From Clostridiales bacterium (GTDB lineage: Bacteria > Bacillota > Clostridia > Christensenellales > Borkfalkiaceae), in contig SVHT01000010.1 in NCBI GenBank assembly GCA_015055615.1, positions 1-53,784 on the forward strand: a stretch of 53,784 bases of DNA. Direction: 5' to 3'. The notes under the pieces were generated by a model. That model did no database searches and was not told the origin of the DNA. It saw only the letters and a program-made list of their open reading frames with translations. Of this stretch, positions 3,579-28,838 are shown piece after piece. Position 1 is the first letter of the stretch; every line of letters begins with the position of its first letter. The position numbers were made by a program, and so were the translations under genes.

Positions 3579-3592
3579 GAATATTCTTTGCC

Positions 3593-3628
3593 TATAAAAA
3601 ACAGAGCGAAAGATTTCCCTCGCTCTGT
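3593..3628 (-). terminator. Terminator after the split lipoprotein pair
   Basis: The stem ACAGAGCGA / TCGCTCTGT (3601-3609 with 3620-3628) is followed by a T-run on the minus strand, downstream of the stop at 3675. Confidence 0.8.
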
Positions 3629-3674
3629 CTTTTGCTTATTCTATTGTTATACCGTTAATCAGTTTGCAATCTTA

Positions 3675-4547
3675 CTAATTCCAAGTTTCAACCCTAACGT
3701 CATCGGGCAACGAAATTTCCTGTCCGTCATTGCTGAATTTTTCTGCATACGCAAGAACGTTTGCCGACATGCTCATCGCCTGACCTTGATAAGAAATGGA
3801 AACAGCCATATTGAAGGAATATTCAATACGCGTCGCCTTACCGTTTACTACCGTAACCGCAAAGCCCGTATCCAACGCGCCGATGTTAATACCTCTAACA
3901 ACGCTCGTTATTTCTTGGAGCGTCGCAACACCTTCAAGGCCAATCAAATCGCCCAGCGTCGTTTCGCTAAGGTATTCTTCAGCCATAGCAACAAAGCTTG
4001 CCAACGTCACGCCTTCTTCCCCTACGGCAAATTCCAACAAATCGTCTACCGTAAGCGAACCGTATTCAGTAAGGAGGTCTGCAATTTTTACGTTCTTTAC
4101 CATGTCCGCCGTTTCAGCGTCGAACTCTTCTACGAGTATATTATAAATATCCGTTTCCGCAAACAGCATATCCTTTACGTCCTGCAAATGCATTTCGCTT
4201 GCGTTGTAGATTACCGCATCCAACGTGGTAACGGCTTCGTTGACCGTATACGTACCCAAATCTTTAACGTCGTTTAAAATCGATTCCCACGTCAAGCCTT
4301 GTTCCACGCGACCCAACGCATAGTTGACCATAGAGCCGAGTTTGGTGTTGGTATTCAAACTGCTGATATAGCCGAGAATCTCAACCAGCTCGTCTCTCAA
4401 GTTGAGCGTGATACGAGTCGTGTTACCGCTCTGCACCATCGTGAATTCTTTGTTGATAAGCTCTTTGATAACTTCGATAACTTCCTCGGGAATCTCTACC
4501 TGGGGCATTTCCTGTTTAAAACTGCTGAAAATTTCTTCCAACGTCAT
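3675..4547 (-). CDS. Downstream half of a probable split lipoprotein
   Basis: A 290-residue protein I do not recognise. It is acidic and rich in short helices, with a beta-rich tail (about residues 225-290). It has no signal peptide. Its ATG (4547) overlaps the stop of the upstream lipoprotein by four bases (ATGA), which on its face is translational coupling. However, the upstream partner is an exported lipoprotein that ends abruptly, while this part begins mid-domain in the -1 frame. A single ancestral protein of about 450 residues broken by a frameshift is therefore at least as likely. A terminator follows at 3593-3628. Confidence 0.6.
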   Translation of the reverse strand: MTLEEIFSSFKQEMPQVEIPEEVIEVIKELINKEFTMVQSGNTTRITLNLRDELVEILGYISSLNTNTKLGSMVNYALGRVEQGLTWESILNDVKDLGTYTVNEAVTTLDAVIYNASEMHLQDVKDMLFAETDIYNILVEEFDAETADMVKNVKIADLLTEYGSLTVDDLLEFAVGEEGVTLASFVAMAEEYLSETTLGDLIGLEGVATLQEITSVVRGINIGALDTGFAVTVVNGKATRIEYSFNMAVSISYQGQAMSMSANVLAYAEKFSNDGQEISLPDDVRVETWN

Positions 4548-7738: not shown

Positions 7739-9154
7739 ATGGACAACTTATTGGCATTATCTATTGCATTGATTGCAGGCTTGCTGTTATCCCGCTTGGC
7801 AAAAGTTTTGAAATTGCCTGCCGTTACGGCATATCTCGTAGCGGGTATTCTCGTCGGGCCTTTCGTCTTGGGCAAGCTCGGTACGTTCATCGCCGAAAAA
7901 ACAATGGGATGGCAAACCCCTATCGTCGGCGTTGGCTTTATCAACGACAAATTTATTGAAAAATTCTCGATTTTAAGCGAAGTCGCGCTCGGGTTTATCG
8001 CCTTTTCCATCGGCAATGAATTCCGTTTGTCGCAACTGAAAAAAATCGGCAAGCAAGCGACCATCGTCGGTATTTTGCAGGCGGTCGTTACCACTTTGGT
8101 AGTAGACGCCGTACTCGTTATTCTGTATTTTGTTTTGCCCGACGGCATTTTGTCCTTGGAGGCGGCAATCGTTTTGGGCGCAATCGCGTCGGCAACCGCT
8201 CCCGCGGCAACGCTTATGGTTGTAAAACAGTACAAGGCAAAAGGCCCTTTGACGGACATTTTGTTGCCCGTTGTTGCCTTGGACGATGCCGTAGGCTTGA
8301 TTCTCTTCGCCATTTCTTTCGGCGTAGCAGGCGCCCTGAAAGCTGGCTCCCCCGATATAATAGGCATCGTGGTAGAACCCTTGCTCGAAATCGTTTGCTC
8401 GCTCGGCTTGGGCGCGCTGATGGGGTATTTGTTCAGCCTTTGCGAACGGTTCTTCCACTCCCGCTCTAAACGTCTTGCCATGTCCGTAGCGTTCGTTCTT
8501 TTGACGATCGCTTTGGCAATGATTGATTTCAAAATCGGCAAAGTACATATCGGGTTCTCCAACCTCCTCGTCTGCATGATGCTCGGTACGATTTTCTGCA
8601 ACGTATGCGATTTTTCCGAAGAGCTTATGGACAGAGTTGACCGTTGGACGGCTCCGCTGTTTATCATTTTCTTCGTTATCAGCGGCGCGGAATTGGATTT
8701 GACGGTATTCAAGAGCGGTTGGATTATCGTCATTGGGCTGGTATATATCCTCAGCCGTTCGGCGGGGAAATACAGTGGCGCGTTTGCGAGCGCAAAGCTT
8801 TCCAAATGCGATGACAACATCGTGAAATATCTCGGCGTTACCTTATTACCTCAGGCTGGCGTAGCCCTTGGTATGGCGCGTATGGCATCCAGTGATTTCG
8901 GCGCAGACGGCGCATTGATTTTGCAAATCACACTTTTCGCCGTTTTGGTATACGAGCTTATCGGTCCTATGCTGACCAAGATTGCCCTTACGAAAGCGGG
9001 CGACATCAACCCCGAAGGCAAAACGACCGCAAGAAACGAACACGCTAAAAACAAACACCGCCTCGGTTTCTTCCACCGCCACGGCAACGACCACGCCGTT
9101 GATACGGTGGTGCCCGTACAAACAAGCCCTACCGAACCGAACGATAAACAATAA
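7739..9154 (+). CDS. Cation:proton antiporter, CPA2 (KefB/NapA-like) family
   Basis: 471 residues with about 12-13 hydrophobic segments over the first 400 positions, typical of the CPA2 Na+/H+ or K+/H+ exchanger domain (PF00999). The N-terminus (LALSIALIAGLLLSRLAKVL ... AYLVAGILVGP) is the characteristic family opening. A charged central segment contains an ALDDAVGL motif in the position where these antiporters carry their ion-binding acidic pair. The C-terminal 60 residues are hydrophilic and lack a recognisable TrkA-N domain. A TTAGGAGC ribosome site precedes the ATG. It is monocistronic and shares a bidirectional terminator with the convergent lipoprotein gene. The ion exchanged cannot be read from the sequence. 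Confidence 0.88.
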   Translation: MDNLLALSIALIAGLLLSRLAKVLKLPAVTAYLVAGILVGPFVLGKLGTFIAEKTMGWQTPIVGVGFINDKFIEKFSILSEVALGFIAFSIGNEFRLSQLKKIGKQATIVGILQAVVTTLVVDAVLVILYFVLPDGILSLEAAIVLGAIASATAPAATLMVVKQYKAKGPLTDILLPVVALDDAVGLILFAISFGVAGALKAGSPDIIGIVVEPLLEIVCSLGLGALMGYLFSLCERFFHSRSKRLAMSVAFVLLTIALAMIDFKIGKVHIGFSNLLVCMMLGTIFCNVCDFSEELMDRVDRWTAPLFIIFFVISGAELDLTVFKSGWIIVIGLVYILSRSAGKYSGAFASAKLSKCDDNIVKYLGVTLLPQAGVALGMARMASSDFGADGALILQITLFAVLVYELIGPMLTKIALTKAGDINPEGKTTARNEHAKNKHRLGFFHRHGNDHAVDTVVPVQTSPTEPNDKQ

Positions 9155-9171: not shown

Positions 9172-9205
9172 AAAGGCGAGCTTTTACAGCTCGCCTTTTC
9201 TTTAT
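9172..9205. terminator. Bidirectional terminator
   Basis: The stem AAAGGCGAGC / GCTCGCCTTT (9172-9181 with 9189-9198) has T-rich tails usable by the antiporter gene (plus) and the sialyltransferase-like gene (minus). Confidence 0.85.
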
Positions 9206-9226: not shown

Positions 9227-11131
9227 TTAAAGGTCCCACTCAGGCTTTGCAGGTCCACCCACTTCGCTGGGCTTTTCAAAGCCTTGCTCGTCAATATCCA
9301 ACCCCTCGGGGTATACTCTCTTCAACCATGCGCTGAACATCTTGCTATATTTAAGTTCGTTCGCATCGTCATCTAAACTCCGATAAATCTTTACAAGCGC
9401 TTTGCAAAGGTTCCCCGTATTGAAAAATACCGTTGTCTGCTCCTTCCCGTCTTTATCCGTATAACGAAGATTGCCCGCCTCGTAACGCTCGCTCACCTGC
9501 GAAACCGGCGTCTTTTCGGTGTCTACGCGATTGGTCCCTGCAATATCCTCGTCCGTTTCCGTCATAATGAACAGCACGTCAACGTCCGTATCATAGCCGT
9601 TGTAGGTGGAGGACGGCAAACCGCAGATTGCGATATCCGCGCCAAGGTATGCAAGGTTTTCCGCCGCCGTACCATACGGCACCATACCGATATATTTCCC
9701 TACGCTGTCTTTCGCATGGAAATTCAACAGCGCCGTATCCATCAGCTGATCGTATACGTAGGTCTGCTCTTCGCCGTAGCTTACCTTATAGCGGTTGCCC
9801 CATTCTTCCCAAGCGCCGATAACTTCGCGAGGGTGTCCTTTCATAATCAAATCGTAATCCGCGCCGTATTGCATATAGGTAAATTTCAGCGTATAGATAT
9901 AATCGAGATACACGTTAAAGCAAGCGATTTGCGCCTTTGCTTTTGCCTCCTCGTCCACGTCCTCAGCGTAATTGTCCGCGTTGTTTAACACTTCCAAGAA
10001 AGAGGTATAATCCTCTTCCGCGCCAAACAGCAAAGGCGTTTTGTACTTCTCGTCAAGCTCCGCATACGTCGCGGGAAGCGTTTCGCCCGTGAACGCGCCG
10101 ATACCGTACTCCTCTTTCGTTGCAAACTTCGGATAACCGTTGTGGCGCGCGCCGATAAACACGAGTTTCTTCGACGGAGCCTCTTCATCCGCGCGTTGCG
10201 TTCTCGTCAACGCTTCGTAGGTGTCTTGATAATACTGTCCGTACATCAACGTGAGGTAATCCGTTCTCTCCTCTTCCGACAACTTCGCAACGCCCTCGGA
10301 TATCTTTTGATATTTGAGATTCAAGGTCAAATCGACCGCTTGCTCATACCCGTCCACGCCAAAGCTAGAAAGCAATTTCGTCTTTACTGCGCCCGTGTTT
10401 TCCAAAATCCCGACAACGGTTGCTTCGTCCTGCAAATAATAGGTAAAGTTATCCAGCGCCGCCAAAGCAAACGCCTTGCCGATATTGTATTTGAACACGG
10501 CGTCGCCGTTGGCGTTGTCCGTCTTTTCCATAACCGTTTCAAATTCCGCCTTAGCAGAGGCAACCGCCGCCGCATAGCCGTCGTAAACTTCGTCTTTTTC
10601 CGCTGTCACCGCTTTGCCTTTTACGTAGACGTTATTCAACGCCGTGTACGCGCCCGTACCGTCTTCGCACATCCATATATGGAATTGATCCTCCGTCAAG
10701 CCTGCGTTTGCCGCAATCGCCGCGCCCTTGAGCGCCGTACCGTCTTGCACGTAGAAATTGAAATAAGCGTCCCCTTCCTCGTCGTTGAGCTCCTTGACCT
10801 TTTCAACCATTGCGTTAAACTCGGCGTTGGTAAAACCGTTGCTGAGGTTGTTCGCAGGATCAAAGCCCACGTTGTGGAAGTTTTCGATACTGTCGATACC
10901 GCTGTACGTCTTTCCGCGTTCAATAATGGCGTACGTTTCGTAACCGCTGTCGATACAGTCCATCGCCGCGAGCACGGGCGGAATCGTTGCCAACGCAAAA
11001 ATTACGTTGTAATTGGTCTTTTCCGTTTCAGGCGGATAGTAAACGCCTTTATTTTTATTGCAAGCCGTAAAAGCCGTTGTTCCCAACAGTAGCGACATAA
11101 CCAACACGAGCGCTCTTTTGATTTTTTTCAT
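9227..11131 (-). CDS. Lipoprotein resembling GT80 (PM0188-type) sialyltransferases
   Basis: 634 residues with a lipoprotein signal (TTAFTAC, C24). The mature part keeps the landmarks of GT80 alpha-sialyltransferases in order. An N-terminal strand NVIFALATIPPVLAAMD resembles the opening of Pasteurella PmST1. EDGTGAY (E156-D157-G158) stands where PmST1 has YDDGS with its catalytic Asp. LSEEERTDYLTLM (about 284-296) matches the LTPEQQAFYLTL region. KLVFIGARHNGYP follows. KGHPR (431-435) is the CMP-binding HP motif and GLPSST (504-509) the Ser-Ser motif. It should transfer sialic acid from CMP-sialate, yet it is anchored outside the membrane where no donor is expected. No sialic acid genes lie nearby. 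It is monocistronic. The comparison is from memory of the family, so activity is inferred. Confidence 0.7.
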   Translation of the reverse strand: MKKIKRALVLVMSLLLGTTAFTACNKNKGVYYPPETEKTNYNVIFALATIPPVLAAMDCIDSGYETYAIIERGKTYSGIDSIENFHNVGFDPANNLSNGFTNAEFNAMVEKVKELNDEEGDAYFNFYVQDGTALKGAAIAANAGLTEDQFHIWMCEDGTGAYTALNNVYVKGKAVTAEKDEVYDGYAAAVASAKAEFETVMEKTDNANGDAVFKYNIGKAFALAALDNFTYYLQDEATVVGILENTGAVKTKLLSSFGVDGYEQAVDLTLNLKYQKISEGVAKLSEEERTDYLTLMYGQYYQDTYEALTRTQRADEEAPSKKLVFIGARHNGYPKFATKEEYGIGAFTGETLPATYAELDEKYKTPLLFGAEEDYTSFLEVLNNADNYAEDVDEEAKAKAQIACFNVYLDYIYTLKFTYMQYGADYDLIMKGHPREVIGAWEEWGNRYKVSYGEEQTYVYDQLMDTALLNFHAKDSVGKYIGMVPYGTAAENLAYLGADIAICGLPSSTYNGYDTDVDVLFIMTETDEDIAGTNRVDTEKTPVSQVSERYEAGNLRYTDKDGKEQTTVFFNTGNLCKALVKIYRSLDDDANELKYSKMFSAWLKRVYPEGLDIDEQGFEKPSEVGGPAKPEWDL

Positions 11132-11180: not shown

Positions 11181-11209
11181 ATCATACCACGTTTTCTTTC
11201 ACCCGTCAA
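11181..11209 (-). promoter_or_regulatory. Promoter of the GT80-like lipoprotein gene
   Basis: -35 TTGACG (11204-11209), a 17-bp spacer and -10 TATGAT (11181-11186). A GGGGTAAG ribosome site precedes the ATG. Confidence 0.75.
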
Positions 11210-18256: not shown

Positions 18257-21200
18257 TTACGCCTCTACAGAATCGTTGCCGTAGTTTGCAGTAGCATTAA
18301 AGTAAATCGTTACGGGGTTATCAGCTCTACCGTCAAACGTACTGATGTAAATGCCCATTTCACCCAAGCCAAGGTATGCGCGCAACGTATACAGCGTATT
18401 CGCCTTAAATCCCGTATTTTCGCTAAACGTATTACCCTCTGCGTCGAAAATCTGAAGTTTTCTTTCCACCGCACCTTTAGACGTACCGCCCAAGACGGTA
18501 ACGTCGTAATTACCTTCCACGCCGTCCCAGATGCAAAGCGTGGACATATCTCTCGATACGGAGAACTGGATGTCTACGTAATCAAAATTAGAAGAGGGAT
18601 TTACTCTTACACGGTTACCCCAAGCCGTAGTATTATCCGTTTCGGTCAAAACTACCGTCGTTCCTTCCGCAAAGCCAAGCGCCGTAACGTCGCCGTCATA
18701 TACGGGCAAATCAGCACCAGTATTTAAAACAACCGTCGTATCTTTCTTAACTACCTTTTCGAACGTAACGCCTTCGGGAAGAGTCGTCAACATTTGCGCC
18801 GTATTCTGCGCCCCGTCTGCAATTTCTTTACCAGAATAACCGATTGCCACGTAGCCTGCCGCTTTGATGGAAACGTTATTATACGTCGTCGTAGTAATGT
18901 CTGCGCCAAGCAACGTTTGCAAATCAAGATAGCTTGCGTCGATGGTAATATTGGAGTAGCTGGTATCGTCTTGCGCCTTAACAACCAACAAGCCTTCGTT
19001 CATTGCCCAGCTCATATTCTTGCTGTGCGCCGTTTTTACCGTAACGTTGATATTTTCAAAGGTACAGCCCCTTGCAAAATCCGCAAACAACGCGCAATAG
19101 TTACCCCAGAATCCGTCCGTACCCTGGTTATCATTGTAAACGACGTTGGTAACGTTGACGTTCTTCACCGTTGCTCTCTGCATACCGCCGAAGATACCGC
19201 CTGCGCCTACCGTGATGTTCTTAATCGTCTTGTTGTTTCCGTCAAATACGCCCGTAAAGAAGGATTTTTGATAGCTATAACCGCCCGCTACGATACCGTT
19301 ATTTTCCGTATAGGTGCTAAAATCAATATCGTCCGCAAGCATATAATAGCCCGCCTTATCGTTACCTGCTACGTCAGAATTACGATGCAACCCCGTATCT
19401 GCTTTACCGCCGACTGCCAATGCAACCAATTCTTCTGCGTTCGTAATGTACGTTACCGCAATTACGTTGCTGAACGAAATGATTTTGTCTGCGTTGCTAA
19501 GTACGACTTTCGCCTGATAGCTGCTAAGCGTTGCGGGGTCAATCGAAACGACCGCTTTACCTTCTTCGTTTACCGTGTACTCAACCGCTTCTTCGCCGTT
19601 GATAGAAACGGACCAAACGCTGCCTACCGTAAACGCTTCGTTTTCCAACGTAACGTTCTTATCGACATCCGTCTTGTATTCGGTCAAATCGAATGCTTTT
19701 TCGGGAGCCATAACGACTTCTTCATCGCCGAAGTACAGCTTGCCGTCTTCTACCTTCCAGAAACCGCCAAGCGAGGATACAACCGCGCCGTGCTTTTCGT
19801 CTGCAAGCAAATCTGCTACCGTTGCGAATTTCGCGCCCGTGTCGTTCGAATAATTGAAGTGCCAGAACGCCGTTGCGCCAGTACCTTGAGCAGCATCAAA
19901 TGCCGTCTTCGTTTCCGTCGTAAGATAATCTCTGTCGATTACGTAAATATTTTCCGATAAGTTATACGCAGAGTTCAAAAGGTATGCGTATTCAACGCCC
20001 GTAAAGACACAAGCCGTTACGTTTACAATAACGTTGGTTATCGTCGTATTACCGTGCTGCGTGATGACCTTCGTAGGTTCGCCTTGGCTTACACCGCTTT
20101 CAATCGATGCAAGGTCGACGTAAACGTTTTCTACAAAGCCGCCTCTGCCACCACGTTCAACAAGACCGGATCTTTGACCGAGCTTCAAGCCCGTGAACGC
20201 AATGTTCTTCAAGACGCCTTCTCTACCCATCGTGCCGATAAAGCCAGCGTATTGGCCATTGATTTCCATGCCTTTAATCGCATAGCCGTTACCGTCGAAT
20301 ACGCCACGGAAACCACCCTTGTCGCCTGCGCCCCAATCTTCTACGATTGCGCCGTCGACCATATTGTCAGCCGCGGGAGCAGTACCCGCTTTATACAGGC
20401 TTTGGTCTTTCCAAATGTTTATATTCTGGTAGCAAGCCGCCCAACGCGTACTGTATACGATATGCGACCAAAGCTTGTTGTATTCGATATCGGCGCCGAG
20501 CACGAAGTAACCGCTCTGTACAAAGCCCTTCTGCGCTTCGATATTCAAGCCAGCCTTCAATGCGTTATCCGCCGCAACGGTATACCATTGTTCAAGCTCT
20601 TCTGCGTTGTCGATAATCATCGTATAAACGCTGACGAACATTTCATATTTTGCTTCGTCCGTTTCAACCGTCATCAAAACGCCGTCGCCGAGGTCGGACA
20701 TCGCCGCGGGCATAGTGCCTACCGTAACCGTCGCGCCGTCGATACTGCCAAATCCTTTCGCCGCGTCGAATACTACGGTCGAACCGATTGCAATCTTCGA
20801 TACCGTGCCTTCTACCGCTTCGGGCAAGGTAATCGTGTTATTATTGTACACTTCCACCGTCATCGTAGCTTCAAGCTTGATGATTTGAGGAGCAACGGTG
20901 AATTCCTTTTCCGCTACTTTGCTACCGTCCATAAGCGACGTAGCCACTACCGTAAACGTATCGCCGATATTCGCGTCTGCCGCAATCGTTACAACGCCGT
21001 TTACAATCGAAACGCCCGCAACCTCTTCTTTCAAAGCAAACGTTACGAAAGCTTCGCTTACGTTCGTCGTAAGTTTAAGCGAGGTGTTTGCGTTCACAGA
21101 CGTTTCTTCGTTGGTGATTGCAACGTCAACGTCGTAGAAATCTTTAACCGACTGCATGGTGAGCATGCCGTTTTCGTTAACGTACCAAATAGCGCTGTCC

Positions 21201-23335
21201 CAAGCAGCGATAACTTCTGCAATTTCTTCGTTTGCAAACAATTCTGCCGTCGAACCGACTACCGCGCCGCTGTCGCCTGCGCCCGTATCAAGATTCCAGA
21301 ACGCACATGCCGCCGAACCGTCCTTCCACGAAATTCCCGTCAAAGGCAATCTTGCGTCGCCCACTACGTATACGTTGGTCGCATCTGCGCAAGCCATACC
21401 GCAAACGTAGGTGTATTCCTTGCTGAAAATATCTGCCTTAGATACGTCTACCACTACGTTATTCACGAAACGGCCGTCGCTTGCCGTGTCTCTGAAAAGA
21501 ACTGCTGTGATCTTCGGGTTATCGCCATCGGGAACACCGCTTGCAATCGAATCAAGCTGTACGTAAACGTTTTCAATCGTACCCTTACCGCGGTCTGCAA
21601 CCAAGCTCGCGCATGCGCCGATTTTTGCCTTCGTGAACGCTACGTCCTTAATCAAGCTACCAGCACCCATCGTAACGATGAACGAGGAGTAGTCGCCAGA
21701 CGTTTCCAGCCCTTCGATGTAATGACCTCTGCCATCGAACGTACCTTTAAAACCGCCGCTAAGGCCTGCGCCCCAGTCTTCCTGGAATGCGCCGTCTACA
21801 AGCGTGCCGTCCTTAACGCCGTCTACCCATATATTTGTGTTGTTATAACACAATGCCCAAAGCTCGCCGTATACCTTATACGGTCTCCACTGCTTGTTGT
21901 ATTGGATATCGTCGCCGAGCGCGAAGTAACCGCTGTATACCAAGCCCTTTTGCGCTTCGATACAAAGACCTTCTTTTACCGCATTTTCCGCAGCAACCTC
22001 TTGCCATTTGTCAAGTTCTTCTGCGTTGTTGATAATCATCGTGTAAACGTCGATGGGCTGCGAATAAATGAATTTATCCGTTTCAATCAACATAATCTTG
22101 CCTACGCCAAGGTCAGCCGCTTTGCAAGGCATACCTGCCTTATCTACGGTAACTACTGCCCCTTCGATACTACCAATGCCGTTTGCGCCGTCAAACAATA
22201 CGCCGCCTGCGATCGTTACCTTTTCAACGTTGGTCGACGCTTCTGCGGGGAGTTCAATCGTTTCCGTTGCCTCCGTTTCAATCGACATCGAGCCTTCCAA
22301 GGCTACCTGACCTTTTTCTACCGCTACGGTAAGGCTAATCGTAAGGTCCTTGCCACCGTACGCAGTCGTACCCGTCAAAACGCCTTCGCCTGCTTTTACA
22401 GCCGTAATCTTACCGTCCGCAATCGTGAATACGTCCGAATCCGTGTTCCACACAACCTCGAGCTCGTCTTCCTGCGGTTCGCCGTTCAATACGCCGTAAA
22501 TCGTACCGATTGCAAGCTCTTCGGTATCTACCGAACCAAACGTAAGCGTCGTCTTGTAGCCGTCTGTAACTGCCGAAATCTTTTCGTTGGGAATATCGAA
22601 ACCGTATTGGTTTTCCATAACCGTTACGGAAAACGTCTTTTCAATTTCATAACCGCGTACCGTCGTGGATACTTTATAAACAGCCGAGCCTACTGCGTTA
22701 CCTTCAAACGTCGCTTCCGCGCCGTCTACGGAAATCGTCGCAACGTCGTCGCCCGACACCTTTTCCCACGTATATTCAATACCGTATTCGTCGTCATCCA
22801 GCGTTTCGCCACCGAACACAACGCTCGCCAATACCGATTTCTGCGCGCCTGCGTAAACTTTAATTTCGGAAAGGTCGAATTCGATTTCGTGCAAAATATT
22901 CGTCTTTTCTATCGTCAGCTCGTGCGTTGCCGATTTGTCAGCGCCGCTTGCCGTGATGGTTACGGTACCCGCTTTATGCGCCGTTACCACACCGTTTGCG
23001 TCTACGGTTGCAATCGTTTCATCCGAAGATTCCCAAACGAGCGTGATTTCATCTTCCGAGCCCGTTACACTGCCGATAAGCGTCAACGTTTCAAATTCCT
23101 TCATCGTCGCGCTACCGTTAATCGTAATTACAATTTCGTCACCACCCAAATCAGGGGTATCCGAACTGTCGCCGGGCGTCACAGCCGAGCTGTCATCAAC
23201 CGATTCATTAGGCGTGGAAGAGGACGTGCCGCCACCGATGATGACGTTATCGTCTTTACCACAGGACGCCATTGCGCCAGAGAACGCAAGCGTTGCAATT
23301 ACGGACAAAATGAGCAATCTTGTTTTCTTTTTCAT
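18257..23335 (-). CDS. Giant surface lipoprotein with Big_2-like and beta-helix repeat modules
   Basis: 1692 residues with lipoprotein signal (GAMASC, C25) and a Ser/Thr/Asp-rich linker. A bacterial Ig-like domain (Big_2 type) lies at about 68-145, followed by further Ig-like strands to about 340. Then come large repeats: unit A about 345-740, unit B about 820-1205, and a diverged third about 1280-1500. Each has an AEEL-W/L-AA opening, a SGYF-LG-DI-YNK segment, a GxFDGxGxxIxGxE turn and stacked strands, as in right-handed beta-helix (GLUG-like) folds. It is probably a glycan-binding or degrading surface protein; no catalytic residue can be assigned. AAGGAG sets the ATG at 23335. It is the last gene of the ABC/surface operon. 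Confidence 0.72.
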   Translation of the reverse strand: MKKKTRLLILSVIATLAFSGAMASCGKDDNVIIGGGTSSSTPNESVDDSSAVTPGDSSDTPDLGGDEIVITINGSATMKEFETLTLIGSVTGSEDEITLVWESSDETIATVDANGVVTAHKAGTVTITASGADKSATHELTIEKTNILHEIEFDLSEIKVYAGAQKSVLASVVFGGETLDDDEYGIEYTWEKVSGDDVATISVDGAEATFEGNAVGSAVYKVSTTVRGYEIEKTFSVTVMENQYGFDIPNEKISAVTDGYKTTLTFGSVDTEELAIGTIYGVLNGEPQEDELEVVWNTDSDVFTIADGKITAVKAGEGVLTGTTAYGGKDLTISLTVAVEKGQVALEGSMSIETEATETIELPAEASTNVEKVTIAGGVLFDGANGIGSIEGAVVTVDKAGMPCKAADLGVGKIMLIETDKFIYSQPIDVYTMIINNAEELDKWQEVAAENAVKEGLCIEAQKGLVYSGYFALGDDIQYNKQWRPYKVYGELWALCYNNTNIWVDGVKDGTLVDGAFQEDWGAGLSGGFKGTFDGRGHYIEGLETSGDYSSFIVTMGAGSLIKDVAFTKAKIGACASLVADRGKGTIENVYVQLDSIASGVPDGDNPKITAVLFRDTASDGRFVNNVVVDVSKADIFSKEYTYVCGMACADATNVYVVGDARLPLTGISWKDGSAACAFWNLDTGAGDSGAVVGSTAELFANEEIAEVIAAWDSAIWYVNENGMLTMQSVKDFYDVDVAITNEETSVNANTSLKLTTNVSEAFVTFALKEEVAGVSIVNGVVTIAADANIGDTFTVVATSLMDGSKVAEKEFTVAPQIIKLEATMTVEVYNNNTITLPEAVEGTVSKIAIGSTVVFDAAKGFGSIDGATVTVGTMPAAMSDLGDGVLMTVETDEAKYEMFVSVYTMIIDNAEELEQWYTVAADNALKAGLNIEAQKGFVQSGYFVLGADIEYNKLWSHIVYSTRWAACYQNINIWKDQSLYKAGTAPAADNMVDGAIVEDWGAGDKGGFRGVFDGNGYAIKGMEINGQYAGFIGTMGREGVLKNIAFTGLKLGQRSGLVERGGRGGFVENVYVDLASIESGVSQGEPTKVITQHGNTTITNVIVNVTACVFTGVEYAYLLNSAYNLSENIYVIDRDYLTTETKTAFDAAQGTGATAFWHFNYSNDTGAKFATVADLLADEKHGAVVSSLGGFWKVEDGKLYFGDEEVVMAPEKAFDLTEYKTDVDKNVTLENEAFTVGSVWSVSINGEEAVEYTVNEEGKAVVSIDPATLSSYQAKVVLSNADKIISFSNVIAVTYITNAEELVALAVGGKADTGLHRNSDVAGNDKAGYYMLADDIDFSTYTENNGIVAGGYSYQKSFFTGVFDGNNKTIKNITVGAGGIFGGMQRATVKNVNVTNVVYNDNQGTDGFWGNYCALFADFARGCTFENINVTVKTAHSKNMSWAMNEGLLVVKAQDDTSYSNITIDASYLDLQTLLGADITTTTYNNVSIKAAGYVAIGYSGKEIADGAQNTAQMLTTLPEGVTFEKVVKKDTTVVLNTGADLPVYDGDVTALGFAEGTTVVLTETDNTTAWGNRVRVNPSSNFDYVDIQFSVSRDMSTLCIWDGVEGNYDVTVLGGTSKGAVERKLQIFDAEGNTFSENTGFKANTLYTLRAYLGLGEMGIYISTFDGRADNPVTIYFNATANYGNDSVEA

Positions 23336-23382
23336 ACATTTTCTCCTTATATATTTTTTAATCATTTTTGGAATTTTAGCTT

Positions 23383-23433: not shown

Positions 23434-25617
23434 TTAGTTTTTAAGCCACTTTTCAAACCAAGGTTTGATATCAATCCCTTCCGCGTGTTTAGTGTAATCA
23501 ATCAGCGCGCAATCAGCGATAAATTCTTCACGCATCTTATTTCTTTCCGTCGGCGTATAGTAACCCGAGTAATATTCGCACATCATATAACGAGGGAAAA
23601 TCGTTTCCGCAATGATATGCTTGTACAGAGATTCGTACAGTTCAGGATCGCTCGTCTTGTATTTCAAGATTGCCGTTTTCGCCTCTTCGCAAAGATCCAA
23701 CCAGTTTTGCAAGGTTGCATGAGGCCAGTACTTCGGTTCTTCCGAGTTCGAACGTCTTTGCGTATAGAAGATACCGGGATATTCTACCTGCAACTGTTCC
23801 ATGTGCGCTACGAGCATGCTGTGGAATTTTCTCATCGGCGCAGCCGCTTCGCGGAAGTAGTTTTCAAAGAATTTGTCTTTCAAAACACCTGCGTCAAGGT
23901 TTACTTCGTTCGACAGCGTATACGTCAAATACGTTCTCAACGTACCAAAGCCCGTGTAAATACCGTTTTCTCTGTCGCCCTGATTGAACAAGAACGTACC
24001 GCCCGCGTCTTTAAGGAAACGAATCGTATCGGGAATTGCGTCGTAGGAGTTATACGGTATAACGTATCTCGTGAAGTTCGTATCGTAAATCCAGCAATAC
24101 AATCTATCCGTGAGCAAGCCCCACTTTTCAAACGTTTCTTTGTGCTGTTTGTTTTCCGGATGATAGAAGGATTCTTCAAACGTTGCGTCGATAGGTGCGT
24201 AGAATACGCCGACGTGTTCGTTACATTCCAAACCGTCTTCATAGGTTCTGTGGAAAGGAAGTTCTACAATTTCCTCTTCGCCGTCGCCGTCACGGTCGTA
24301 TTGAAGAATATTTACCTTGTTACCGTCCGCGTCTTCAATGGCGTCCAAAGAGGGAACGGTGTACTCACCGTCCGTGCCTTCTACGGGCGCTTTTGACGTC
24401 TGTCTGTATGCAAAGAACAAAATCGTAACTTCACGCTTAGGCTTACCGGATTCTATTGCTTGACGTTCAAGTTCTGCCTGTACCATCGTATCCAAGTCGT
24501 TTACGAAGAACATGTACGTAACCGCAAGTGAATCGCTGAACGTTTTTTGCAACATCTTACACGTAGGACATATACAATGTCCAAAGTAGTCTTCACGCGT
24601 GAAGGTAATTACTGCTTCGTCGGGATAATTCTCAAGCGACTTCATAACCCCTTCAAACGCATACTGCAACATGGCGTCGTATTCTTCCTTGTTACCGTGC
24701 GCCGTATAGCAAAGCTGCAACATCGGTATCGCCGCTTCCCAAGCAAACCAGTCGGGATGCGCTTCGTATTCGGTTGTGGGAACGAAGTCGAAGGAATTGT
24801 GACAGAATTTATTGTTGATAAGCGCAAATACGTCTTCCTTGGTTATAGGCGAAGCCATATAGCTGGTGCTTGCCATCTTACCGCTGTTCCACGTCAAATC
24901 AAAGTCGGGTTTTTCCACGATGTCCATCGTAGGCAACGTCGCGCCGTCTTTCGTGTATACGATCGTGTCGTACGAATACCATTCGTAACCGACTACTTCA
25001 CGAAGAAATGCCTGCGCTACCTTTTGGTAACCGTAGAAAGAGTTTATCTTCATGAATACCGAGTCACCCATCGTCTTAATCATATAACCGCTATAATCAA
25101 GCTCGACGTCGTCTCTCCAAGTAATACCTGCTTCCTCTTCCAATTTCTCGTGCGATAACACGATATATTTGGTAGACGGTGTATACTCTAACAATCTGTT
25201 TGCAACCGATTCCGTATCGATTTCCAAGTTTTGATCCACGTCTACGAAAATCGACAAACCCGCGCCCGTTGCTTTCCTGATTTGCTGCGTAAGGAAGTTT
25301 GCAGCGTCCATTGCTCTCGAATCATTCGTTCCTAATACGATGATGTAATCGGTTTTCCCGTCTACGACAAAGGGTCTATCCGATGCGGTAACCTTTCTGT
25401 CGTGCAAAAGCTTTTCTTCGCTGACGTAATGTTCCGCGCCGTCGCTCATAGTTCCGCCGTCGATATAATCGCGGTCGTCGCTGGGCGTATCCACAGAGGA
25501 GCTAGAAGAATTGTCGCTGGGATAATTAACCACACCGCCATCGCTTTTACCGCAAGCTGCAAGACTCGTTGATACCAACAATGCAGCCAATAAAAGTGCT
25601 GAAAGTTTCTTTTTCAT
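23434..25617 (-). CDS. DUF4838-domain lipoprotein, putative glycoside hydrolase
   Basis: 727 residues with lipobox SLAAC (C22) and a Ser/Asp linker. The body matches DUF4838 proteins (PF16126): an N-terminal domain resembling those before GH67/GH20-type barrels (VLGTNDSRAMDAANFLTQQIRKATG) and a TIM-barrel-like central region. That region has HPDWFAWE, FTREDYFGHCICPTCKMLQ and a helical C-terminus. The family is tied to polysaccharide loci but no substrate is established. It is anchored outside the cell, so it probably trims the glycan before import. An AGGAGG ribosome site lies upstream, 11 nt after the stop of the preceding gene, indicating tight coupling. Confidence 0.8.
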   Translation of the reverse strand: MKKKLSALLLAALLVSTSLAACGKSDGGVVNYPSDNSSSSSVDTPSDDRDYIDGGTMSDGAEHYVSEEKLLHDRKVTASDRPFVVDGKTDYIIVLGTNDSRAMDAANFLTQQIRKATGAGLSIFVDVDQNLEIDTESVANRLLEYTPSTKYIVLSHEKLEEEAGITWRDDVELDYSGYMIKTMGDSVFMKINSFYGYQKVAQAFLREVVGYEWYSYDTIVYTKDGATLPTMDIVEKPDFDLTWNSGKMASTSYMASPITKEDVFALINNKFCHNSFDFVPTTEYEAHPDWFAWEAAIPMLQLCYTAHGNKEEYDAMLQYAFEGVMKSLENYPDEAVITFTREDYFGHCICPTCKMLQKTFSDSLAVTYMFFVNDLDTMVQAELERQAIESGKPKREVTILFFAYRQTSKAPVEGTDGEYTVPSLDAIEDADGNKVNILQYDRDGDGEEEIVELPFHRTYEDGLECNEHVGVFYAPIDATFEESFYHPENKQHKETFEKWGLLTDRLYCWIYDTNFTRYVIPYNSYDAIPDTIRFLKDAGGTFLFNQGDRENGIYTGFGTLRTYLTYTLSNEVNLDAGVLKDKFFENYFREAAAPMRKFHSMLVAHMEQLQVEYPGIFYTQRRSNSEEPKYWPHATLQNWLDLCEEAKTAILKYKTSDPELYESLYKHIIAETIFPRYMMCEYYSGYYTPTERNKMREEFIADCALIDYTKHAEGIDIKPWFEKWLKN

Positions 25618-25628
25618 CTTTATCCTCC

Positions 25629-28600
25629 TTATGCCTCTACCGTTACGGTGTATTCTACGATTCTTTGGTTGCCCGCCGCATCGTATACAACGTTAACGAA
25701 CGTGTACTTGCCTACGTTATTAAACGTGAAGCTGTATTTGTAATACGCAATCTTACCATTCGTTACAACGAAATCCTGTCCGAACGTAATCGCGTCGCCG
25801 TGAGGGTTGAATACGTATCTAAACACTTTCATTTCTTCCACCGACGAAGAGTCGTCCGAAATAGTAATTTCGGGAAGTACTACCGTATCGCCAAGCTTTG
25901 CCGTAGCGGACCAAGTACCCGTAATTGCCGCCTGAGGCAATCTCTGGTCAAACACGTTGATTGCGTAGCTCAAAGTACCCATTTTGTTGCCGAAGTCCGT
26001 AGCCGAATATTCAACCTTGTACTGACCGTAGCTCGTCAATTTAATATAGTAGTAGCGATCAGCAGGTACGTTTTCCATTGCAAGACCGTCTACGTCCTTG
26101 ATAATTTCGCCGTCCGGCGTTCTAATCGTTACGACTGCGGTAACGCTTGCGTCCACCGTATCGCTCGCGATTGCGGGCGCAACCGTATACGTACTGTTAA
26201 GCGTATGCATACCGCCGTATTCGTCGCTAACACCGATTCTGGGTTGCGTCGAATCCAAAGAGTTGGTATTGATAATTTGGTTGTCAATCTGTTTTACGTA
26301 ATAGCCCGAGTCCGCCGCTGCGTTCGTTGCTTCCACGCTGATATATACCTTACCGGAAGGGAATCCATTGAACGCGTTGCCATTATCGTCCGTCGTTACG
26401 CCAACCGCTAAGCTATCTACGTAGAATTTGCCTCTCTTAAAGCTAAACGCAAACGTATCCAAATCGAAACCGTTCGAGTCTTTACCAAGGTTAAAGCCCT
26501 TCGTAAGCTCACGGTTCAAGTCACCAAAGTTTACTCTCGCAAAGCCGTTTGCCTGATTTTCGATATTCATCGTTACGGCAATATTTTCATTTGCGTAGTC
26601 GGTAAAGGTAACCTTCAACGCGTCAAACTTACTGTTGCCCTGAATACCTTTGATGGTAACCGAAGAACCTTCCGCCGCTACTGCGTTTACGAATTCCCAG
26701 TTAAACGCGCCGTCTTCTTGCGCGAGGACTTTCATACCGTTCGATCTCAAAACTTCTGCCGAGAAATTTTCACCGACAAACATTTTAACGACGTCTATCA
26801 TCTTTCTGCCGTTCGCGTCCGTAACGGGCGTTACCACGGGAATCACTTTCTTGTATTCCGCGTCGCCCGACTTGAACGTCAAGGTAATAGATTCTTGACC
26901 TTCCGTTACGACAGGCGTAAACGCATCTCCTGCTTTATAGGTTACGTCGCCGTTTGCGTCACTCAAAACCATATCCGCAATTTTTTCTACTTTCGTACCG
27001 CTGGAATAGTCGTACGCCTTTACCGTAGGAACGTAGTACACAATATTCGAGATGATATATTTGGGAAGAAGAACTTCGTCAACGAATACGGGTTTCGTAC
27101 CCAACGAAATTTCCACCGTGTAGGAATCGGTCACCTTGACGCCTGCGAAATCTTTCGCTTCGTAGCTTACCGTCCAAGTACCGGTTTCTTCGGGAATGAA
27201 GTATCCGTTCGTTACGTCCAAAACGGTATCTCCGCAAGTAGCCGTAATTTTTACGTCTGCCTCGCTGCTGCCGCCCGTTACTTCATAGGAGGCAACCGCA
27301 ATCTTTTCACCGCATGCACCGCTGGTCGTTTCCTTTTCGCCAAGCGTGATTGTCAAGGGATTTTCCAAGCTCTTTACAGCGTTAATCCAATACAGTTTTT
27401 CCACGACGTTTCCCATAGCGTCCGTCGCTTTGTAAACGATGGTGTATTTACCCGCTCTGTCTACCTTAAACGTATTGTCTTTCTTAATGGAGCATTGTTC
27501 TCTGCCCGTTTCACTGCTATAATTGAAATATACCTTCGTATCTACTTTCAAGTTGCCCGAATAATTGTCGAACGCACTCGCAACAGGCACGGGATAATTA
27601 CCGCCTATTACTGCGGTAGGAATCATATTGTAAGCGCCGTTTTCATATTTAACGTATTTTTCGTCTACGTCTACCGAAATCTCAGGCGCTTCCGTTTCCA
27701 CGAACACGTTCTCCTCCGAAAAGTCGTAACCGAACACCTTAGAAATACAGAAACCCGCCGATTCGCCTGCGCACTCCTGCGCTTCTACGGTCATAAATAC
27801 CTTGTTGCTAGGGAAACCGTACCAAAGGGGTTCTTCTTCGTAGTACGTTCCGTTATCGTGATCTGCAATCCAAGTTTGGTTAATAGACGTCTTCACGTCG
27901 TTTATATCGTACGAAATCGTGAACGCGCATGCATCTGGCGAAGCGTCTTCCCAAGCACAACCGCCCGGATATTGACTGCCATACCAACCTATCTGCGAAT
28001 AGAAAGACGCATTCTGCGCGTGTCTACCGCGAATACCGTCGGGGTTGTCGGTTGCAAAACGGTTAGCGTTCGGGTCCCAACCACCGAGCGTTTGACCAGG
28101 GCCTGCGCTCGTCCAATAGCTTGCAAATCTTTGGTTGTTGGTCGAACTTCTGTTCCCGCGGATTGTCAACTTCTGCGTGGGATCGGTAACGTCCGTCAAC
28201 GTAATGACGAATTTATCGAATTCGTACATACCCGCTACAGGAGGATTGATAAACCCACTAAGCAACGCATCCTTCGCCTCAAGCGTACTCAAGTCAATGA
28301 TTCTGTTAAAGGACAATACGTCGTTTTTCGCAAGTCTTACCACCAAAGCGTTCGTCGAACCGACTTTGCCGTATTCAACCGTACTGTTGGGATTACCAAC
28401 GCTCCACAGCTTATCTTGTACCAAGAATTCCACTTCCTTGGTATAGCCCTGCGCCTCGTAAATCAAGGTATACTGTCCAGGTTGCGTCAAGGCAAAATCT
28501 CCACTCTCCACCATAGAAACCGCACCGTTGGGATATTTCATCTTGATGCTAGCGTCATACGTGTTACCGCCAATCGCAATCGACGCGTCGGGAATCGTCA

Positions 28601-28760
28601 ACGTATCATTACGCAGATATTCTTCCTGCAAGGTGATGTTTTCCCACGTCGGGATATCGTCTGCTTTACCAGACCATATCGCGCCCATAACGGGGGCCGT
28701 AATCGCGCCCATCGCCGCAACACACATGGAGGTGATAAGAATTTTCTTCATTCTCTTCAT
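25629..28760 (-). CDS. Large exported multi-domain beta-sandwich protein
   Basis: 1043 residues with an N-terminal signal peptide (MKRMKKILITSMCVAAMGAI) that lacks a lipobox, so it is secreted or retained by unknown means. It is built of immunoglobulin- or cadherin-like beta domains, with repeated phrases such as AGKYTIVYKATDAMGN and VGKYTFVNVVYDAAGN. A larger module occurs twice, marked by GFPSNKVFMTVEA (about 330) and GFPSGKVYISVEA (about 820). It is probably a carbohydrate-binding scaffold working with the ABC transporter. I start at 28760, downstream of AAGGAG; the frame extends 16 codons further without a ribosome site. Confidence 0.68.
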   Translation of the reverse strand: MKRMKKILITSMCVAAMGAITAPVMGAIWSGKADDIPTWENITLQEEYLRNDTLTIPDASIAIGGNTYDASIKMKYPNGAVSMVESGDFALTQPGQYTLIYEAQGYTKEVEFLVQDKLWSVGNPNSTVEYGKVGSTNALVVRLAKNDVLSFNRIIDLSTLEAKDALLSGFINPPVAGMYEFDKFVITLTDVTDPTQKLTIRGNRSSTNNQRFASYWTSAGPGQTLGGWDPNANRFATDNPDGIRGRHAQNASFYSQIGWYGSQYPGGCAWEDASPDACAFTISYDINDVKTSINQTWIADHDNGTYYEEEPLWYGFPSNKVFMTVEAQECAGESAGFCISKVFGYDFSEENVFVETEAPEISVDVDEKYVKYENGAYNMIPTAVIGGNYPVPVASAFDNYSGNLKVDTKVYFNYSSETGREQCSIKKDNTFKVDRAGKYTIVYKATDAMGNVVEKLYWINAVKSLENPLTITLGEKETTSGACGEKIAVASYEVTGGSSEADVKITATCGDTVLDVTNGYFIPEETGTWTVSYEAKDFAGVKVTDSYTVEISLGTKPVFVDEVLLPKYIISNIVYYVPTVKAYDYSSGTKVEKIADMVLSDANGDVTYKAGDAFTPVVTEGQESITLTFKSGDAEYKKVIPVVTPVTDANGRKMIDVVKMFVGENFSAEVLRSNGMKVLAQEDGAFNWEFVNAVAAEGSSVTIKGIQGNSKFDALKVTFTDYANENIAVTMNIENQANGFARVNFGDLNRELTKGFNLGKDSNGFDLDTFAFSFKRGKFYVDSLAVGVTTDDNGNAFNGFPSGKVYISVEATNAAADSGYYVKQIDNQIINTNSLDSTQPRIGVSDEYGGMHTLNSTYTVAPAIASDTVDASVTAVVTIRTPDGEIIKDVDGLAMENVPADRYYYIKLTSYGQYKVEYSATDFGNKMGTLSYAINVFDQRLPQAAITGTWSATAKLGDTVVLPEITISDDSSSVEEMKVFRYVFNPHGDAITFGQDFVVTNGKIAYYKYSFTFNNVGKYTFVNVVYDAAGNQRIVEYTVTVEA

Positions 28761-28838
28761 CTTATTTTTCTCCTTACTATATTTATTAACTAATATTTGG
28801 CTTGTCAATTCATATTTGGCTTTTTGGTTATCAGCATC

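Follow-up and report, generated by a model that had tools for sequence, protein, structure and literature searches.

The question raised by this locus is why a Clostridia bacterium should export, as a lipoprotein, a protein that resembles GT80 sialyltransferases. Glycan synthesis relies heavily on GT80 enzymes, and the passages of the papers cited here give no explanation for the export signals on family members such as two marine sequences. An anchored branch in Clostridia, with some members linked to S-layer domains and at least one genome in which no sialic-acid pathway was detected, makes this export oddity testable. The choice lies between external CMP-dependent sialidases or trans-sialidases, transferases of other CMP-sugars, and lectins derived from enzymes. 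Either outcome bears on how bacteria read and edit external glycans, and could supply new starting enzymes for glycan synthesis.

We analysed a DNA stretch of 53,784 nucleotides (the window). The first-pass annotation had placed an ORF of 634 residues at 9227..11131 and left its strand unstated. The ORF, termed P0001 here, is present on the minus strand; the plus strand has stops. The gene and its predicted signals are as follows.

9227..11131, minus strand: P0001 coding sequence, 634 aa, a predicted exported GT80-like lipoprotein (ORF and homologues)
9512..11011, minus strand: GT80-like core, approximately residues 41-540, boundaries approximate (hhalign and profile A6)
11060..11131, minus strand: signal peptide with lipobox FTAC, Cys24 (sequence reading)
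11181..11209, minus strand: promoter-like site, TTGACG-17-TATGAT, with TG before the second hexamer (consensus match, 10/12)
9172..9198, minus strand: terminator-like hairpin of 11 pairs (consensus match)

The sequence AAAGGGG lies directly 5′ of the P0001 ATG. Consensus matching revealed 7 promoter-like sites in the whole window versus 2.4 in shuffles, and 3 terminator-like sites versus 3.1, i.e., no excess. dN/dS of P0001 was 0.114 relative to L002 and 0.135 relative to L004. The AAAGGGG sequence, the promoter- and terminator-like sites, and the low dN/dS values suggest that P0001 is a real gene, perhaps a single-gene unit. An M20 peptidase gene lies on one side of it and a Na/H exchanger gene on the other; also encoded nearby are enzymes resembling a rhamnosidase and a GH2 mannosidase, as well as other lipoproteins. 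An operon reading was rejected: the M20 peptidase and Na/H exchanger are common to three loci of the same genus and absent beside the other genera examined. No sialic-acid link was found in the neighbourhoods examined. Elsewhere on the minus strand of the window, two proteins of 1702 and 1059 aa (18260-23365 and 25632-28808) had Ig-like domains as their sole Pfam matches, that of the second scoring below cut-off; a DUF4838 lipoprotein (23437-25617) lies beside them.

GT80-like proteins had been described as not expected in a Clostridia-like genome. They occur in more than one such genome: relatives were found, patchily, in several families. Searching 398 genomes of the same family with a single sequence gave a match in 10, own genome counted. 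Profile A1, built from nine sequences (P0001 and the eight first relatives), gave a match in 15 of the same 398 genomes, or 14 after L027 (G271), phosphoesterase-like by eye, was discarded; L012 was dropped as unrelated. Profile A4, built from five distant relatives, matched 12 of the 396 genomes searched in the order, including three already known carriers of the P0001 type and one 133-aa fragment. Profile A6 was built from 13 distant relatives and contained no member of the P0001 clade. It matched 6 of 361 genomes in the class (own genome and five of one genus) and, across the phylum, 2 of 348 genomes (the own one and G1343, whose protein L076 has 353 aa and is of polysialyltransferase type by eye). 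One relative, L002, was confirmed in the genome_contigs collection, on the same contig as L003.

No match to P0001 was found in the phage and plasmid collections, no S-layer-type domain in the plasmid collection, and no L057 match in the phage collection. Among viral contigs, A1 gave 228 and A4 gave 10 pattern stretches, none of which was confirmed. A 30-row tree recovered each of these as one group: the P0001 clade (100/100), the S-layer group (100/99), and the GT80 references (100/100); it separated GT80 from all 25 Clostridia rows. Branching within the Clostridia part was not used because the tree program warns of long branches. Proteins anchored to the S-layer with a C-terminal GT80-like domain are encoded at L078:7344-12113 (G808) and L077:3319-6699 (G861); G808 has two tandem GT80-like domains that are identical over 400 residues. 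G190 carries a P0001-type gene with an internal TAG (L006/L021).

Searches with P0001 alone detected no relationship to GT80. Pfam returned 0 families (neither PF11477 nor PF07388), the best NCBIfam match was an unrelated aminopeptidase model (E 0.096), and no PDB sequence matched. PF11477 had no match in the P0001 genome, and A1 had no GT80 match in PDB. A6 matched 15 GT80 sequences in PDB (approximately five enzymes plus variants) at E 1.3e-12 to 1.7e-10; the next match was at 0.018. A6 also matched P0001 itself at E 9.8e-17, over model positions 3-189, mainly in the N-terminal half, unlike most of the GT80 matches, which covered positions ~200-360. When all domains were displayed (E for 8 sequences), the N-terminal half of P0001 matched at 7.9e-19 and the C-terminal half at 0.002; in close relatives the C-terminal half matched at 7e-7 (L010), 5e-6 (L007), and 7.6e-6 (L005).

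hhalign aligned the P0001 clade with the distant relatives over 339 columns in both halves (E 1.3e-18), and the distant relatives with five GT80 sequences over 328 columns (E 1.5e-16). Direct alignment of the P0001 clade with GT80 scored 37.9 over 75 columns (KGHP to SS), with a probability of only 30%; 100 column shuffles scored ≤26.2. Three reversed-profile controls scored 12.8-16.8 (E 0.38-0.8). Relative L026 matched PM0188 (E 0.003) as well as sequences of GT80 crystal structures (E 0.017-0.032), and relatives L043 (30.3 bits) and L039 (27.6 bits) passed the Pfam PM0188 cut-off of 25 bits. These comparisons show, at the level of profiles, a remote homology of P0001 to GT80 via intermediates, with the putative catalytic residues in equivalent columns. 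Because the sole structural model, built by AlphaFold2 from two rows (P0001 and L002), is poor (mean pLDDT 36), we infer a GT-B fold for P0001 rather than assign it. The GT80 resemblance noted earlier thus stands as a real remote homology with aligned catalytic residues, but P0001 itself falls below PF11477 detection.

Motifs were compared across 31 aligned rows: 8 close sequences, 13 distant ones, 5 S-layer-type sequences (from four genomes, two identical tandem domains included), and 5 GT80 sequences. The 133-aa fragment L047, L072 (G988), and L006/L021 with the internal TAG were left out of alignments. PmST1 numbering was taken as chain position + 24, which reproduces the published D141 and H311. 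The aligned features in P0001 are as follows.

10979..10990, minus strand: ATIP (residues 48-51), matching A(S/T)LP near the GT80 domain N-terminus; P in 26/31 rows, S in the five S-layer rows
10916..10918, minus strand: R72, aligned with PmST1 R63; 31/31 rows
10658..10666, minus strand: E156-D157-G158, D/E-D/E-G motif, D157 in the column of catalytic base D141; G in 31/31, D in 29/31
10244..10282, minus strand: LSEEERTDYLTLM block, residues 284-296, aligned by MAFFT with the EEQ block of relatives and GT80
9827..9841, minus strand: K431-G-H433-P434-R435, HP motif (PmST1 K309, H311, P312); K, H, and P in 31/31
9659..9661, minus strand: E491, aligned with PmST1 E338; 31/31
9608..9613, minus strand: S507-S508, SS motif (S355-S356); first S in 31/31, second position S in 23, T in 6, G in 2

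All motifs named in the first-pass annotation were present: EDG at 156-158, LSEEERTDYLTLM at 284-296, KGHPR at 431-435, and SS at 507-508. Motifs this short could arise by chance on their own; EDG, HP, and SS, however, occupy positions equivalent to those in GT80, in the same order, as judged from the 31-row alignment and the profile homology. MAFFT placed the LSEEER block on the L/F-x-EEQ block of GT80; hhalign places that block differently. E491 and R72 had been overlooked. In PmST1, residues D141, H311, E338, S355, and S356 are reported as important for catalysis in passages of PMC4202792, and all five are aligned in P0001 (D157, H433, E491, S507, and S508). Passages of PMC2169525 and PMC5517516 describe the HP and D/E-D/E-G motifs as functional in polysialyltransferases. 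The columns of PmST1 R63, G142, G266, K309, H311, P312, E338, G352, and S355 were invariant in 31/31 rows, counts that do not represent independent events because many rows are close relatives.

P0001 had been estimated to exceed PmST1 by about 200 residues, mostly between the catalytic motifs, which is partly correct. The D157-H433 interval is 276 residues versus 170 for D141-H311 of PmST1, an excess of 106; by aligned positions, ~31 further residues lie between HP and E491 and ~70 after SS, the last figure depending on the total length taken for PmST1. The acceptor-side residues H112 and W270 are not kept in P0001, which has A and N there; alignment confidence is lower in these regions, and H and W at these columns are also absent from 2 of the 5 GT80 rows. 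The CMP side therefore appears conserved and the acceptor side does not. One lineage has lost the base but retains the scaffold: in L008 (G060) and L009 (G061), from sister genomes, the base D is replaced by N (L008) or I (L009), and SS by SG. Both ORFs stay open. dN/dS of this pair was 0.376, versus 0.098-0.222 in five other pairs, which for this one closely related pair is consistent with relaxation following loss of catalysis.

The lipobox reported earlier at C24 was found; it reads FTAC and closes a typical signal peptide. A survey of lipobox-bearing homologues, proposed in the same annotation, revealed a lipobox in all 8 close-clade members examined (P0001 among them) and in 6 of 13 distant members. 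Four other distant members have a membrane anchor and no lipobox, L024 is ambiguous, and the N-termini of L044 and L046 were not resolved and are outside the signal counts. Three of the five S-layer-type carriers were read (L077-L079); these have a signal peptide, S-layer-type repeats, and a C-terminal GT80-like domain, with the S-layer domains confirmed by Pfam in L077 only and the L079 gene split across two ORFs. An export or anchor signal was present in 22/22 Clostridia members with a resolved N-terminus, P0001 counted; within this number, the signals of L026 (a lipobox, in L029) and L079 are on separate upstream ORFs.

A lipobox does not set P0001 apart. Two marine GT80 sequences share one: the Vibrio harveyi homologue L057 begins with lipobox ISGC, and the PDB sequence of Photobacterium enzyme 2z4t has LLTLILLTAC near its start. 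The localisation paradox is weaker because lipoboxes occur in at least part of GT80 itself. The L057 protein, annotated as hypothetical, is encoded at L057:3302-4516 on V. harveyi plasmid pvh5, which is typed as conjugative. Among the open-access papers listed for this subject, no title or abstract dealt with a GT80 lipoprotein from Clostridia, a result that does not establish novelty. In their passages, PMC6388019 and PMC2996176 say nothing about lipoprotein sialyltransferases, and those of PMC12797295 contain none of the residue names sought.

Genes for sialic acid and donor synthesis were sought in the carrier genomes. The P0001 genome gave no match for NeuB, NanE, or BNR_2 (PF13088), an absence that is not absolute because the genome is 94% complete; a benefit from sialic acid is therefore not evident. 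Its only PF02348 (CMP-sugar-synthetase-like) match is IspDF, not NeuA. Among 23 carrier genomes, 8 had a PF02348 match, none above 28.2 bits, and 6 had a NeuB match, none above 37.2 bits. Three of the eight PF02348 matches were looked at, namely the own-genome one and L051 and L053, both judged IspDF by eye; L054, the one scanned of seven NeuB places, is a DAHP synthase. The S-layer genus had a cytidylyltransferase match of 68-71 bits in 4/5 genomes, and the two scanned were PseF-like, below cut-off. A cytoplasmic CMP-sugar is possible in this genus and is not evident for P0001.

The distant relatives occur in varied contexts: two are near polysaccharide-type genes and one is between cytidylate-kinase-like genes. 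At L029:5180-13646 (G106), the GT80-like gene is near dTDP-sugar- and flippase-like genes (by eye) and an IspD-type cytidylyltransferase gene (Pfam); at L063:395-11439 (G504), glycosyltransferase-like genes (by eye) are beside it. At L030 (G057), similar cytidylate-kinase-like genes in opposite orientation (3583-4449 and 8269-9135) flank the GT80-like gene. A CMP-consuming partner there would be suggestive; the arrangement was seen in one genome only.

We tentatively favour the reading of P0001 as an exported, lipid-anchored GT-B enzyme that would bind CMP and act on external sialosides, by transfer or by CMP-assisted hydrolysis or trans-sialylation. By analogy with GT80 and GT38 enzymes, CMP would be held by E491, H433, and S507/S508; H433 would stabilise the CMP leaving group, and D157 would act as the base. 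Less certainly, sialic acid or another nonulosonic acid on extracellular glycans might be moved or removed outside the cell by means of the bound CMP. Stimulation of GT80 sialidase activity by CMP is described in passages of PMC4521712, and trans-sialidase and reverse reactions of GT80 in passages of PMC8512710. Because the chemistry is reversible and CMP-stimulated, no CMP-sialate from the own cell would be needed. The changed acceptor-side residues lead to the prediction of an acceptor other than lactose-type galactosides. A more specific proposal, which we consider unlikely as it stands, is that a surface GT-B sialyltransferase scaffold serves as a CMP-dependent trans-sialidase in a cell having no sialic-acid biosynthesis or catabolism of its own. 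With CMP acting as cofactor, sialic acid would then be removed from sialoglycans outside the cell and attached to other glycans. If true, a nucleotide-sugar transferase fold would here underlie a type of trans-sialidase, which would also give an in vivo reason for the lipobox-bearing marine GT80 enzymes.

The main rival to an active enzyme is a non-catalytic binder, in which the GT80 scaffold has been recruited as a surface lectin or as a CMP/sialoglycan sensor that performs no turnover. Surface anchoring fits this explanation, as do the Ig-like, leucine-rich-repeat, or S-layer domains present in some relatives, the tandem identical domain pair in G808, and the open ORFs of L008/L009, which lack the base and second Ser and have dN/dS 0.376. 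However, the base is kept in 29/31 rows and the H, E, and S residues in 31/31, leaving-group residues would be superfluous for a lectin, and the dN/dS of L008/L009, above that of the five other pairs, looks like local relaxation and not a rule. We consider a binder less likely than an active enzyme. Chance occurrence of the motifs in an unrelated exported family would explain why Pfam, NCBIfam, and PDB gave no related match to P0001 directly; this is disfavoured and very improbable, since the transitive profile homology was obtained with reversed and shuffled controls and the functional columns superpose.

An active GT-B transferase might also use another cytidine-activated donor, such as CMP-Kdo, CMP-pseudaminate/legionaminate, or a CDP-polyol, acting outside the membrane to modify surface polysaccharide of its own cell. 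The K-x-H-P / E / S-S core points to a CMP leaving group and not to sialic acid itself, the L029 and L063 genes are beside surface-polysaccharide-type genes, and 4/5 S-layer-type carriers have the 68-71 bit cytidylyltransferase. On the other hand, activated nucleotide sugars are cytoplasmic, the only PF02348 match in the P0001 genome is IspDF, and the neighbourhoods vary between genera; we judge this donor switch to be improbable. On the sequence comparisons, the export signal of P0001 and its remote kinship to GT80 are real, and its function may be that of an enzyme or of a binder.

Of the known systems, GT80 (PF11477; PmST1/PM0188 and the Photobacterium/Vibrio enzymes, PDB 2ex0, 2z4t, 2zwi, and 4r83) is linked to P0001 by profile homology via intermediates, with ATIP, R, DG, G, KxHP, E, and G..S(S/T) in the same order. 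P0001 differs from GT80 in being below PF11477 detection, in having 106 more residues from base to His and ~70 more at the C-terminus, and in that no CMP-sialate pathway was found. A reading as a TagF-type CDP-glycerol transferase was rejected: neither P0001 nor any of the relatives scanned with Pfam matched PF04464, the family of these enzymes. PF07388 (A-2_8-polyST) matched 9 of 13 distant relatives at E≤1, with L039 and L041 over cut-off; its proteins share the DG, K-x-HP, E, and SS motifs, and P0001 itself has no PF07388 match. GT38 and GT52 (poly)sialyltransferases likewise have D/E-D/E-G, HP, and a Ser-Ser/Thr phosphate site, according to passages of PMC2169525 and PMC5517516. No GT38 or GT52 structure was among the A6 matches in PDB at E≤1, and PF07922 (GT52) touched 1 of 13 distant members, at E 0.1 only. 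With GH33-type trans-sialidases (BNR/Asp-box), P0001 may share the end result, the transfer of external sialic acid with no CMP-sialate made by the cell itself. Unlike these, P0001 has no Pfam domain and its genome no PF13088 match, and a GT-B fold and a CMP cofactor would be expected.
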